Part shown: piece after piece, positions 32,290-38,508 of the stretch
Numbering within the stretch: position 1 is the stretch's first letter
Layout of the letters: each line of letters begins with the position of its first letter
NCBI GenBank assembly: GCA_016870715.1
Contig: VGAL01000010.1
Location: forward strand, 1-38,508
From: Actinomycetota bacterium
GTDB lineage: Bacteria > Actinomycetota > Actinomycetes > Nanopelagicales > Nanopelagicaceae
Direction of reading: 5' to 3'
Length of the DNA stretch: 38,508 nucleotides
The notes under the pieces: model-generated
Told to the model about the DNA's origin: nothing
What the model saw: only the letters and a program-made list of their open reading frames with translations
Databases searched by the model: none
Translations under genes and position numbers: made by a program

Positions 32290-33774
32290 GTGCCTTCTAA
32301 AAGCCATGCCGCAAAGGGCAAAAGCGCTGGAAAACCAGCGGCAAAAAGCGCTGTGAAGAAAGCCGTGAAGAAGGCTCCCGCAAAGAAAGCTCCAGCTAAA
32401 AAAACACCAGCAAAGAAAGCTCCAGCAAAGAAAGCTCCAGCAAAGAAAGCTCCAGCAAAGAAAGCTCCAGCAAAGAAAGCGCCAGCAGAACGTCCTCGCT
32501 TTTTAACGAAGGCAGAGATTGAAGCGCGCAAGGCTGCGCTCGCCGCAGAACTTCAAAAAGAAATTGGAGCAAAGTCCTCACCGAAAAAACCAGAGAAGAG
32601 CGAAAAACCTGCTGCTGGAAAATCAGGTGGCAAGGTTGCTAAGGCTCAAGTTGAAGGCGAAGAGGTCGAGTTAGAAGAGGTCGATTTAGAGGATCTCGAA
32701 TCGCTTGAGAAGGAACTTGTCAGCGACAACCTTGAGGGCGTTGAGAACATCGTCGACGCCGAGCGGAAAGATAAGCCCGCTGAGCCTGAGGATGACCGTG
32801 CCGGATTTACCCTCACCGCCTCCGAAGAGGATGATCTGCCTGCTCAGACCGTTGTGACTGCCGGCGCGACCGCCGACCCGGTCAAGGATTACTTGAAGCA
32901 GATTGGTCGGGTGCCGCTGCTTAATGCTGAACAAGAGGTTGAGCTTGCAAAACGGGTCGAGGCAGGGCTTTTTGCCGAAGAGACCCTCAACGCTGGTTCC
33001 AAATTTGAGAAGAAGTTAAAGCGGGAACTCGACTGGATTGCAGAAGATGGGCGTCGCGCCAAGAACCATCTACTTGAGGCGAATTTACGTCTTGTGGTCT
33101 CGCTAGCAAAGCGGTACACCGGTCGCGGAATGCTCTTCCTTGATCTCATTCAAGAGGGAAATCTTGGACTTATTCGTGCGGTGGAAAAGTTCGATTACAC
33201 CAAGGGGTATAAGTTCTCGACCTATGCAACCTGGTGGATTCGCCAGGCGATTACCCGCGCCATGGCCGACCAGGCCCGCACCATCCGTATCCCGGTCCAC
33301 ATGGTTGAAGTGATCAATAAATTGGCCCGTGTTCAGCGGCAGATGCTCCAGGATCTAGGGCGCGAACCGACGCCTGAGGAGCTGGCAAAAGAGCTCGATA
33401 TGACCCCGGAAAAAGTCGTTGAAGTTCAGAAATATGGTCGCGAACCAATCTCGCTTCACACCCCACTTGGTGAAGAGGGCGATTCTGAATTCGGCGATTT
33501 GATCGAAGATTCTGAAGCAGTTGTTCCTGCAGATGCAGTCTCGTTTACTTTACTTCAAGAACAACTTCATTCCGTTCTCGATACGTTGTCCGAACGTGAA
33601 GCAGGAGTTGTTGCGATGCGTTTTGGTTTAACGGATGGACAACCAAAAACTTTGGATGAGATCGGAAAAGTTTATGGAGTTACTCGCGAACGTATTCGTC
33701 AGATCGAATCGAAAACGATGTCGAAATTACGCCACCCATCGCGCTCGCAGGTCTTGCGCGATTACCTCGATTAA
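32290..33774 (+). CDS. rpoD: Primary RNA polymerase sigma factor (RpoD/HrdB/SigA)
   Basis: About 494 residues. It begins at GTG 32290 with GCGAGGA 5 nt upstream. The N-terminal 60 residues are a Lys/Ala/Pro-rich histone-like tail (repeats of AKKAP), followed by an acidic region. Region 1.2 is [31 protein letters not shown]. Region 2 has the -10-recognition [19 protein letters not shown] and [18 protein letters not shown]. Region 3 has [13 protein letters not shown]. Region 4 ends with the [23 protein letters not shown]. This is the essential housekeeping sigma. The tail resembles those of actinobacterial HrdB-type factors and is encoded by exact 15-bp repeats. Confidence 0.97.
32411..32485. 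repeat. 15-bp tandem repeats in rpoD N-terminus
   Basis: CAAAGAAAGCTCCAG is repeated four times exactly (32411-32470). A fifth copy with one change (GCGCCAG) follows, encoding AKKAP units. Degenerate copies lie upstream, from about 32371. DNA identity at synonymous positions implies recent expansion. Confidence 0.92.
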
Positions 33775-33789: not shown

Positions 33790-33949
33790 GGCACTCTCAG
33801 GCCTATTGGGCGCCACCTGCGCTTTCGTTGGGGTACCCCCACAAGGGTGTCAAGACTCTCGGGATTTGGTGTCCTTTTTGGGCTACTGCTGGCTTAATTA
33901 AGGGGCCTCAGCCACCTAGACTTGAGGTCGGTTGTGGAGGCCGATCGTT
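33790..33949 (+). promoter_or_regulatory. Leader of the large surface protein, with SD-sequestering hairpin
   Basis: This gap contains a second palindrome, GGGGTACCCC (33830-33839). Near its end GGCCTC (33904-33909) can pair with GAGGCC (33937-33942), extended by CAC (33913-33915) with GTG (33934-33936). The 3' arm contains the GGAGG ribosome site of the downstream gene. No promoter with good -35 and -10 elements stood out, and I see no known riboswitch. Confidence 0.5.
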
Positions 33950-36900
33950 ATGTGTTTGTCAGCATTTTTAGCGACACCTGCGCGCTTTCGCCTACCCAAA
34001 AAGTCTCTCGCATCAATAGCAAGCTGGTTAGTTGTTGCTCCATTAATTGCACTTGTCTCCGTAACAACGTCGGCGGCTACGGCGCAAGCGGTTGATTGTG
34101 TCGTTGGTTCTAGCGCTGATTGCCCTGGAGCTAGTGCAAAACACATTAAAGATGTTACGGGAACAAATACAGATGGCGTCTACTGGATTACCGTGGGAGG
34201 GGTCGCCACTCAGGTTTACTCCATTATGAATTCTGCGATGGATGGTGGCGGGTGGATGCTCGCCATGAAGGGCGCCAACACTGGCGCAACTTTCAATTAC
34301 AACTCGACGCACTGGACAACGACTTCAACGTTAAACACCACCTACCTTCGACGTAATGACTCTTCATACAATGAAGATGCAAAGTTTTCGGTTTTCAATA
34401 GCACCCCCGCTTCAAAAGTCCTTGCGATATTTCCTGATGCGACAGCTGGCGGTGCAATAACGGGTCAAAGTTACGGATTCACCTGGAACGAGACCATGCC
34501 TACTCCGGCAAATACACAAAGTTATTCAGGTCGCCCGACTCAAGGTGATTACACAGGAAAAACTTTGCGCGAGCTTTTTGCCGGTGGTGAAAAGATTTAC
34601 ATTCGGGATGCGACAAATGCGAGTCCGTATCGCGCCGCAGGGTCCGGCGTCTTCTCCACCCAGACTGATGTGCGCTTTTTTGGCTTCAATTATTCTGGCG
34701 GAAGCTCCAGCAAAGCTCGTTTTGGTTTTGGCTTTAACGAGAATACTAATGGAGCCGCCTACCCAACTGCTGATGAGAATTCGAATGACGTCGAAGGTGG
34801 CATTGGTCTGAATAGATCAAATACAAGCGCTGGAGACTTTATTTATTGTTGTCAGAATTCCAGTGGCGTGAACCGCCAAATGAAATTTGAGCTGTATGTG
34901 AAGGCATATTCGACGGTTCCCGATGTCCTCGCCCCCTTCTCAGCAACACCGTCAGATGGACAAGTAACGCTTAACTGGGGAGCAGGATCCGCAACAAGCC
35001 CGGTAACGGGTTACACAGTTCAGAGCTCGAGTAATGGTGGAAGTAGTTGGAGTACCGCCGTCGCACTTGATTCGACTGCACGTAGTTATACCTACTCAGG
35101 ACTGACGAATGGCACGACTTATTCCTTCCGCGCCAATGCGGTGAACGCCCTAGGTGCAGGAGCCTTTGCGACCACAACAGCGATTCCCTCACTTCCCCCA
35201 GATGCTCCATCAATCAACTCACTAACCGTTCGCCAAGGTGCGCAATGTGCTGCTAACGCATCTCCGAGCACTGGTGTGACTGCAGCAATGGTTGGAAATG
35301 ATTGCGTAGTTCAGTTTACGAATGTCGGCACAGTAACTTGGACGCCTCCAGCAGGCGTCACTAATGTTCAAGTGTTAGTGGTGGGCGGTGGAGGTGGCGG
35401 TGGTTTTGATATAGGCGGTGGAGGTGGCGGTGGAGCTGTCGTTGCGGGCACATTCACCGCACAGGCAACTACTTATTCGGTAACGGTGGGTGGTGGCGGA
35501 AACGGGGCGGGCGCGAATCTAAACGGCAACGGCAACAACCATTACTACACAATTGGTAGCAGCAATGGTCAAGATTCGGTAGTGACAGGAACAGGACTTG
35601 AACTTCGAGCCAAAGGTGGTGGAGCCGGTGCGTCTTCATACTATGGATACACACCTAATTATGGAGCCGGTTTAGCAGGCGGCAACGGTGGAGGTTCATC
35701 TGGTTATTCCGATGGAAATTACAAAAGCGGCGGCACCCAGACTCAATCAACTCTCGGATCGACAAGTGGTTTAACGTCTGTGCTTTCTGGATCAACCGGC
35801 TATAACGGTGGTCGTGGGGGACGCCAATACTATTCTGGAGGCGGAGCAGGCGCGGGTGCAAAAGGAACAGATTCACCTACGCGAGCAGACGGAGGGGCGG
35901 GATTTTCAAGCGCAATCACAGGTACAAATTTCTATTGGGGCGGCGGTGGAGGTGGAGCTGGTCATTCAATAGCACCTGGAAATGGTGGCGCCGGCGGCGG
36001 TGGTGGTGGAGGTGGATATGGCACCGGTGCCGGAACGGGAAATACGCAGGGACTCAATGCTGGTTCTAACGGTCAAAACCGCGCACATGCGCCAGGCGGC
36101 AATGGAGGCGTCAGCACTGGCGGTGGTGGTGGTGGTGGGGCGCATTACAACACTGATTCAAAAGGCGGCAATGGCGGTTCCGGAATAGTTGTTCTTCGAT
36201 ACGAAGCGCCCTCTGTCTATGTTGAGGCGAATCTGTCGGCACCCGCATTCAATGGCGGATCCGCGGTAACAAATTACCTTTATCAATATTCAACTGATGG
36301 AAGCACGTGGAGCGCTGCCACAAGCTCAGGTTCAGCAGCCACAACTTTTAATCTAATGGGGGTTACGACTGGTTCCTATCGTTATTTCCGAATAGCAGCT
36401 AAGAATCCTGCGGGCACAAGCACGTACACGCAATACCCGACATCGCTCTTAGTGGCCGCTGCCCCAACGGCGCCATCAACGCTTGTTGCCACGAGGGGTA
36501 ATTCCCAAGTTGGACTAACGTGGACCGCGCCATCAGCTATTGGCGGTGCGAATATCACAGATTATGTTGTTGAGTATTCAACAAACAATTCTACGTGGAC
36601 AGTTTTTGCGGATGGAACTTCCACAACTGCTGCCGCGACAGTAACTGGGTTGACTAATGGCACTCCCTATTACTTCCGAGTCGCCGCTGTAAACATCGCA
36701 GGTACAAGTGCATATCTTGCAAGCTCCACTACTACGACGCCAGCAACTACCCCCTCCGCGCCTCAATCTCTCACGGTGAGCTCGGTCGTAACCGAAACAC
36801 TTACTACGAACGGTTTGGTTGGATACTGGAGTTTTGACGGATCGTCGACGCTCGGAGTCAATAGCGTTGCGGGAAATACAGCGCTTATCTCTGGAGGTTC

Positions 36901-38508
36901 TCCTGCTTATACGACAAGTGGAAAGTTTGGTGGAGGGTTACTCCTTAACGGGAGCTCATATTTAAGTGGTTCAGTTCTAAATTTGCCGACCGGAAGTTCA
37001 AGTTACTCGATTGGCGGGTGGATAAGAAATACAACTCTAGGTACGCAAGGCATCCTTGGTTGGGGAAATTGGGGAACTACCAATCAGACGAACGCATTGC
37101 GAACCTCCAATAATTCCATTTACCACTATTGGTGGGGGAACGACGTGAACCCGGCTATGCCATCTGGACAAACGTTGCTCAATACATGGCACCACGTAAT
37201 TGCAACTTATGATGGGTCGACACGAAAAATATATCTAGATGGTGCGCTGCTTTCTAGCGCAGCGGCGAGTGGTTTGAATGCGCAAAATATGAATTTCCGA
37301 ATTGGTTCGACTAATAATTCAGAGAACTTCATTGGCACCCTCGACGATATTGTTGTTTATAACCGTGCATTAACTTTGGCTGAGGTTGGCACAGTCATGA
37401 ATCAAACTGGTGGACAGGTGACACTCACATGGTCTGACATGGCTAACAATTCGCTAAACGGTGGTGCTGCAATTACCAATTACAGCGTTGATTATTCGAC
37501 AGACAACACCAGTTGGACTAACTCTGCCGCTGGCGCCGCCACTCCCACCTCTGCCACGGTTACTGGTCTTACTTCTGGAGCCAGCTATTACTTCCGAGTT
37601 CGAGCAATCAACTCAGTGGGTAATGGTGCATATGCAACTACTGGTCCGCGTGCAATTGCAAACCCGGCAACGCTCACTTATAACGGAAACTCTAATACTT
37701 CAGGCACTGTGCCTTCAGATGCCACAGCATACGTCGTGGGTCAGGCAGTGACAGTGCTTGGTAACACGGGAAACTTGAGCCGGACTGGATATACATTCGC
37801 AGGATGGACTGACAACAGTTCTGGGACAGGCACTGTTTACACCGCAGGAAATTCGTATTCACTTCCGTCGGCAACTTCCAATCTTTACGCAAAGTGGAAT
37901 GGAATATCTAATACCGTTGCATACGATGCACAAGGGGGCGCAGCAGTTTCGTCGGTGACTTGGGTTACTGGCGCATCGCTAACTCTTCCCGCAGCACCTA
38001 CTCGTGCCGGGTATACCTTTAACGGTTGGTACGACGCAGAAAATGGTGGGACTCGGGTCGGCGGCGCAAGCGCCTCTTATAGCCCAGCAAACACGGCGGG
38101 TTTCACCCTCTACGCGCAGTGGACTGCTAACACCAACACCGTTGCCTTCGATTCGCGAGGTGGATCCAGCGTTGACTCAAGAAGTTGGATAACTGCCACG
38201 ACATTGAATCTTCCTCCAGCGCCGACACGTGCCGGCTACACCTTCAATGGTTGGTTTGCAGCTGCATCCGGTGGAAGCCCAGTGGCACCGATGACGACAG
38301 CTGCAAATGGATTGTCTTTTGATGGAAGCGGACGCGTTGATGTTCCTCATTCGAACGCATTTAACTTCTCAACGGACATCACGATTGAAGCGTGGATAAA
38401 AACGACTTCAAATTCAGAACAGTACATCACCACAAAAAATGAAAATTCATTTTATTTCGGAATTAATCTCGGTGGCGGGGCCGGAAAGGTGTCATTTTGG
38501 CTCAATAA
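33950..38508 (+). CDS. Very large secreted modular surface protein (5' part; fibrinogen-like, FN3, glycine-rich, LamG, InlB-like repeats)
   Basis: An uninterrupted frame of 1519 codons runs off the window. ATG 33950 has GGAGG upstream with 9-nt spacing. Domains: signal peptide (1-47, cleavage at TAQA/V); bacterial fibrinogen-like domain (about 50-325) with DGVYWITVGG and MDGGGWMLAM; FN3 (about 323-414); a split FN3 interrupted by a glycine-rich module (about 430-755, ending GGSGIVVLRY); FN3 (about 837-932); another FN3 interrupted by LamG (GYWSFDG ... GTLDDIVVYNRAL, about 947-1152); then three InlB/Flg_new-type repeats (RAGYTFNGW). The third repeat is cut by a second LamG that runs off the end. 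These are carbohydrate- or protein-binding adhesin modules; ligand and total size are unknown. It stands alone after rpoD. Confidence 0.88.
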   Translation, partial: MCLSAFLATPARFRLPKKSLASIASWLVVAPLIALVSVTTSAATAQAVDCVVGSSADCPGASAKHIKDVTGTNTDGVYWITVGGVATQVYSIMNSAMDGGGWMLAMKGANTGATFNYNSTHWTTTSTLNTTYLRRNDSSYNEDAKFSVFNSTPASKVLAIFPDATAGGAITGQSYGFTWNETMPTPANTQSYSGRPTQGDYTGKTLRELFAGGEKIYIRDATNASPYRAAGSGVFSTQTDVRFFGFNYSGGSSSKARFGFGFNENTNGAAYPTADENSNDVEGGIGLNRSNTSAGDFIYCCQNSSGVNRQMKFELYVKAYSTVPDVLAPFSATPSDGQVTLNWGAGSATSPVTGYTVQSSSNGGSSWSTAVALDSTARSYTYSGLTNGTTYSFRANAVNALGAGAFATTTAIPSLPPDAPSINSLTVRQGAQCAANASPSTGVTAAMVGNDCVVQFTNVGTVTWTPPAGVTNVQVLVVGGGGGGGFDIGGGGGGGAVVAGTFTAQATTYSVTVGGGGNGAGANLNGNGNNHYYTIGSSNGQDSVVTGTGLELRAKGGGAGASSYYGYTPNYGAGLAGGNGGGSSGYSDGNYKSGGTQTQSTLGSTSGLTSVLSGSTGYNGGRGGRQYYSGGGAGAGAKGTDSPTRADGGAGFSSAITGTNFYWGGGGGGAGHSIAPGNGGAGGGGGGGGYGTGAGTGNTQGLNAGSNGQNRAHAPGGNGGVSTGGGGGGGAHYNTDSKGGNGGSGIVVLRYEAPSVYVEANLSAPAFNGGSAVTNYLYQYSTDGSTWSAATSSGSAATTFNLMGVTTGSYRYFRIAAKNPAGTSTYTQYPTSLLVAAAPTAPSTLVATRGNSQVGLTWTAPSAIGGANITDYVVEYSTNNSTWTVFADGTSTTAAATVTGLTNGTPYYFRVAAVNIAGTSAYLASSTTTTPATTPSAPQSLTVSSVVTETLTTNGLVGYWSFDGSSTLGVNSVAGNTALISGGSPAYTTSGKFGGGLLLNGSSYLSGSVLNLPTGSSSYSIGGWIRNTTLGTQGILGWGNWGTTNQTNALRTSNNSIYHYWWGNDVNPAMPSGQTLLNTWHHVIATYDGSTRKIYLDGALLSSAAASGLNAQNMNFRIGSTNNSENFIGTLDDIVVYNRALTLAEVGTVMNQTGGQVTLTWSDMANNSLNGGAAITNYSVDYSTDNTSWTNSAAGAATPTSATVTGLTSGASYYFRVRAINSVGNGAYATTGPRAIANPATLTYNGNSNTSGTVPSDATAYVVGQAVTVLGNTGNLSRTGYTFAGWTDNSSGTGTVYTAGNSYSLPSATSNLYAKWNGISNTVAYDAQGGAAVSSVTWVTGASLTLPAAPTRAGYTFNGWYDAENGGTRVGGASASYSPANTAGFTLYAQWTANTNTVAFDSRGGSSVDSRSWITATTLNLPPAPTRAGYTFNGWFAAASGGSPVAPMTTAANGLSFDGSGRVDVPHSNAFNFSTDITIEAWIKTTSNSEQYITTKNENSFYFGINLGGGAGKVSFWLN

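Follow-up and report, generated by a model that had tools for sequence, protein, structure and literature searches.

The end of the stretch of DNA analysed here (38,508 nucleotides, hereafter the window) encodes a large protein in which repeat domains and candidate binding modules alternate, raising the question of whether these modules are strung end to end between the repeats or nested inside them. If the nesting is real, ordinary domain annotation misreads such proteins as beads on a string, and the means by which small-genome lake Actinobacteria attach are poorly known.

Layout of the window protein

The window corresponds to contig C10 of a 1.41 Mb genome in 86 contigs, and its final frame (33932-38506, plus strand) remains open over 1525 codons before leaving the contig, which ends at 38508. 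Pfam matches in the 1525-aa frame comprised FN3, Laminin_G_3 (73 bits, curated cut-off 27.6), Gly_rich_2 (42.3 bits, cut-off 24.3) and Listeria-Bacteroides repeats; the features are listed in domain order in Table 1. The initial annotation had located the nested region correctly, but by starting at FN3-2 it omitted FN3-1 and the fibrinogen-like N-terminal region upstream. No second protein of the nested-FN3 type was found in the same genome. The adjoining gene encodes a sigma factor with a long N-terminal repeat (window 32290-32530), the length of which differs in a sister genome (G036, see below).

Table 1. Features of the open frame at the end of the window, in domain order.
Feature	Position	Strand	Basis
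N-terminal segment, likely signal peptide	33932..34096	+	Basic start, hydrophobic core, ATAQA; 60% identity to sister
Fibrinogen-like GGGW-type region	34097..34915	+	NCBIfam NF040941, residues 68-110, E 3.6e-5, under cut-off; 93% identity to sister
FN3-1, intact	34916..35194	+	PF00041 at 34952-35167, above cut-off
FN3-2 first part, strand A PPDAPSINSLTVRQG	35195..35239	+	Stitch test +9.2 bits; predicted beta strand
Insert 1, glycine-rich module (Gly_rich_2), 324 aa, in FN3-2 A-B loop	35240..36211	+	Pfam PF21722
FN3-2 second part, strands B-G, resumes as SVYVEANLSAPAFNGG	36212..36457	+	Own FN3 profile, positions 19-86
FN3-3, intact	36458..36751	+	PF00041 at 36470-36718, E 4.9e-14
FN3-4 first part, strand A PSAPQSLTVSS	about 36752..36787	+	Stitch test +14.0 bits
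Insert 2, LamG (Laminin_G_3), in FN3-4 A-B loop	36788..37405	+	PF13385 at 36950-37387, E 5.5e-20
FN3-4 second part, strands B-G, resumes TGGQVTLTW	37406..37657	+	PF00041 at 37391-37633; own profile, positions 10-88
InlB-type repeat 1, intact	37658..37906	+	PF09479 (three stretches in protein); TIGR02543
InlB-type repeat 2, intact	37907..38131	+	PF09479, residues 1328-1396
InlB-type repeat 3, N half	38132..38290	+	Own InlB profile match stops at position 52 of 70
Insert 3, LamG, ends at contig end	38291..38506	+	PF13385 at 38321-38503

Split FN3 and InlB-type repeats

The relation between the FN3 halves was assessed by a stitch test, in which the 14 residues directly before each insert were joined to the second half and rescored on an FN3 profile built from intact copies of related genomes. 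Unjoined, the second halves of FN3-2 and FN3-4 match this profile only from positions 19 and 10, respectively. Joined, both match from profile position 1-2, their scores rising from 60.3 to 69.5 bits (+9.2) and from 71.3 to 85.3 bits (+14.0), and both become full-length matches to FN3 (PF00041). By way of calibration, adding its own strand A raised the score of an intact FN3 by 10.5 +/- 3.5 bits (150 domains), and none of 5000 random 14-mers equalled the true strand A in either FN3-2 or FN3-4. When every position over the 500 aa upstream was scanned, the 14-mer just before the insert scored best in both domains. The gain on joining, the random 14-mers and the calibration with intact FN3s hence indicate, at the sequence level, that each pair of halves belongs to one domain, and place both breaks in the A-B loop, after the first strand. 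The initial annotation had held that FN3-2 is interrupted after SINSLTV by a glycine-rich module and FN3-4 after PQSLTV by a LamG, in each case right after the first strand, and that the same protein contains an uninterrupted copy (FN3-3); all of these points were borne out.

The structure predictions are compatible with split FN3s, short of proof. In two AlphaFold2 models (mean pLDDT 74.8 and 74.6), each strand A segment was predicted as a strand, with a mean pLDDT of about 85 over the first ten residues, and the strands expected downstream of the inserts were predicted as well; the input alignment already had intact FN3s spanning the LamG split, a possible bias towards this outcome. The alignment folded was A1, whereas A3 was left out because its deeper InlB rows spoiled it, and the third InlB-type repeat and the second half of the second LamG were poorly modelled. 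In Foldseek searches the first model best matched a tandem of titin FN3 domains (TMt 0.79), and the second matched LamG-type jelly rolls such as domain 4 of AbnA. Foldseek matches of the LamG model to neurotoxin binding domains reflect the common jelly-roll fold.

The third InlB-type repeat had likewise been described as broken by a LamG. The window itself presents the first half of this claim: the N half of the repeat ends at about 38290, a LamG begins at about 38300 and the window stops within it. The return of the repeat is visible only in a sister gene (L008, in G036:C21, CAMAPN010000021.1), which shares 84% identity with the window gene and also runs off its contig. There (residues 1451-1700) the repeat breaks at GGVRVG, gives way to a LamG and returns as NTYSPTNTAAFTLFAQWTANTNTVTF, completing an InlB-type repeat (PF09479) after the insert. 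The sister genome presents the same three nestings as the window protein. In a Clostridia MAG (L020, residues 807-1000), a weak CBM_4_9-like match interrupts an InlB repeat at the position where that of the sister gene is broken.

Recurrence of the nesting and nature of the inserts

A search of 296 genomes of the family for LamG and Gly_rich_2, followed by reading of the contigs with long frames, identified nested FN3s in four genomes from two genera: the window genome (G000), G036, G005 and G044. The junctions of the window recur in G036 (84% identity) and G005 (about 51%). At the A-B site, glycine-rich modules were found in G000, G036 and G005, and LamG modules in all four genomes. The LamG modules of G005 and G044 share about 30-33% identity with that of the window, a low value that fits separate insertions, although the two types may also reflect old common descent. 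A second FN3 site, the B-C loop, carries glycine-rich modules in G005 and G044 and a PA14 module with a glycine-rich module in G036 (contig C12); joining these B-C halves brought gains of 9.7-18.5 bits (+14.8 and +18.5 for G005 and G044), equalled by none of 3000 random 30-mers. The distant A-B cases of G005 gained little, from 1.9 to 7.7 bits depending on the join point. The initial annotation had looked to related genomes for the same host halves with different inserts, and these were indeed found, with LamG, glycine-rich and PA14 plus glycine-rich inserts. G005 also contains a third interrupted repeat type (FGTPVP...), of which one copy is intact and three of four are interrupted by long stretches, one of these inserts containing a clear LamG. 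To judge from these sequences, the nesting extends more widely than was seen initially, to two FN3 loops, InlB-type repeats and a third repeat type.

In G036:C12, three levels of nesting were observed (L072, residues 220-919), with an FN3 B-C loop holding the PA14 and glycine-rich modules, and the glycine-rich module itself interrupted by a stretch of about 148 aa without a clear Pfam match. In G005, which has a genome of 1.9 Mb, an open frame of 16,932 aa on contig C57 (L102-L104) includes tens of FN3s, several LamG and one glycine-rich module.

As a control, the FN3 following directly on a LamG or glycine-rich module was inspected. It was headless in nine of nine cases in the two genera concerned (g1 and g6) and intact in four of four elsewhere in the class. 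One LamG of G005 is located inside the third repeat type, and the FN3 that comes after the end of this repeat is intact. In G024, a relative from the same genus, a glycine-rich module lies upstream of an intact FN3. The controls and G024 thus identify the nesting as a special arrangement and not as a rule for LamG and glycine-rich modules. Class-wide searches with an FN3[LamG] segment and with Gly_rich_2 (346 and 297 genomes) did not reveal further nested FN3s in the loci examined.

The inserts are complete modules, since the same modules occur free-standing in small secreted proteins: the glycine-rich insert has such a homologue at 51% identity (L045), and the LamG insert has several (L132-L134). 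Between the window and the sister gene, the two full inserts presented dN/dS values of 0.02-0.06, similar to those of the stalk and rough, as dS is high, and the inserts look to be under constraint. Several of these small secreted proteins (L045, L132, L134, L044, L048 and L049) have in common a C-terminal Ig-like module (VTFY..GK.IPGC..CTWKP) preceded by a LamG, glycine-rich or fibrinogen-like head; this Ig-like domain is possibly a common display or anchoring module.

An end-to-end arrangement would require PSINSLTV and PSAPQSLTV to be mere linkers and the FN3s after the modules to be natural variants devoid of strand A. Such FN3s are conceivable, the closure of the split halves in three dimensions is presumed, and relatives such as G024 do place a glycine-rich module ahead of an intact FN3. 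Nevertheless, both segments match the profile's strand A no worse than the corresponding segments of intact domains; in these genera the FN3s directly behind the modules are missing a strand A that is present ahead of the module, and elsewhere a LamG is followed by an intact FN3; and linkers cannot account for the B-C cases, in which strands A and B both precede the glycine-rich module. We thus regard the linker reading as improbable. It is harder still to credit that the inserts are functionless remnants of accidental recombination, or the product of faulty assembly. Repetitive genes do assemble badly, and the window and sister contigs both end within the gene, but identical junctions occur in an independent genome and in the more distant G005, the frames are open throughout, and the dN/dS of the two full inserts is low. 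Both the assembly and the linker readings were considered and dropped.

A stronger competitor, which we nonetheless consider unlikely, accepts the nesting and assigns to the modules a service to the stalk (spacing, stiffness, protection from proteases or self-association) in place of ligand binding. Binding by the inserts is indeed putative, and no solved structural relative of the glycine-rich module was found by sequence. The Foldseek matches of the glycine-rich model, however, were to phage glycine-rich proteins, and LamG and PA14 are typical binding families. Among the inserts of RTX adhesins, the sugar-binding ones that were tested proved to bind fucosylated glycans (PMC12077191, PMC10865825), whereas two other inserts of AhLap did not bind erythrocytes (PMC12077191).

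We consider it likely that the window gene encodes a long secreted fibrillar adhesin with modules inserted in the loops of its stalk repeats. Beta-sandwich repeats of the FN3 and InlB types would build the stalk, and three complete modules (one glycine-rich and two LamG) would sit in their loops, two of them behind strand A of an FN3 and the third ahead of the final strand of an InlB repeat. Each module starts and ends in a single loop, so that its host repeat should still be able to fold shut and the chain to continue along the stalk, and the module would project sideways with its far face free for binding. The putative ligands would most likely be glycans or other polymers on the surface of cells, algae or lake particles. 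The protein is probably surface-displayed; its C-terminus, like that of its sister, lies beyond the contig end, and a recognised anchor domain was not found in a 6436-aa relative from G005. Of the modular display system put forward in the initial annotation, the nesting of modules in loops, as opposed to an end-to-end order, is thus upheld by the stitch test, the swapped inserts and the controls in which a LamG precedes an intact FN3, while display and binding are what we infer.

Relation to known adhesins and phage proteins

The closest precedent is provided by the RTX adhesins FrhA of Vibrio, AhLap of Aeromonas and MpIBP of Marinomonas, in which split Ig-like domains consist of a 12-aa N-terminal strand segment, a sugar-binding domain and then the bulk of the domain, the split serving there as a mark by which ligand-binding domains are recognised (PMC10865825, PMC12077191). 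As in those proteins, a module interrupts a beta-sandwich repeat of a long putative adhesin behind a single N-terminal strand, and the repeat then resumes, several split units occur per protein, and an insert may itself carry an insert. The hosts differ, being FN3, InlB-type and third-type repeats, with the B-C loop of FN3 also used, and so do the inserts, which are LamG, glycine-rich and PA14 modules here and sugar-binding and PA14 modules in the RTX adhesins; the proteins described here are moreover actinobacterial, and their binding is putative. Pfam searches of the window protein (with its C-terminus beyond the contig), the sister and the 6436-aa relative returned no match to RTX nonapeptide repeats or a type I secretion end. 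The order of one strand, module and domain bulk is found in the window protein at the sequence level, where it works like the split-domain RTX adhesins without being a member of that group.

The layout so far described for Gram-negative adhesins has apparently evolved separately in a lake actinobacterium. We lean towards the broader view that lake Actinobacteria came to split-domain presentation independently and that it follows a general rule there, by which the loops of at least three stalk repeats take exchangeable binding modules, nested up to three deep, and which marks binding domains in giant bacterial proteins beyond the RTX adhesins. If true, small-genome lake Actinobacteria would have arrived separately, and by way of other folds, at the design of Gram-negative RTX adhesins, and repeats lacking their first strand, with that strand found across a module, would offer a sequence-only route to candidate ligand-binding modules. 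Searches of the open-access literature turned up no previous account of surface proteins of Actinobacteria with nested FN3 or InlB repeats.

The InlB-type repeats, matched by PF09479 and TIGR02543, are shared with internalins and other Listeria-Bacteroides (InlB B) repeat proteins, but in the window protein, unlike internalins, one such repeat is interrupted by a LamG. Pfam searches identified no leucine-rich-repeat family in the window protein, and the internalin model NF033188 reached 88 bits against a cut-off of 1050, its best stretch lying only in the repeat region.

The glycine-rich module also resembles phage glycine-rich proteins of the Gly_rich_2 type. Two loci with a terminal glycine-rich module were found in viral contigs, where FN3[LamG] was not detected, and phage records returned no tblastn match. 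A partial-length alignment at 44% identity with a protein encoded on a viral contig of 245 kb suggests exchange of this module between phages and lake actinobacteria; unlike in the window protein, the viral module is located at the C-terminus, outside any FN3. It lies at L222 4001-4714 and shares with the window module the near-identical stretches GASSYYGYTPNYG.
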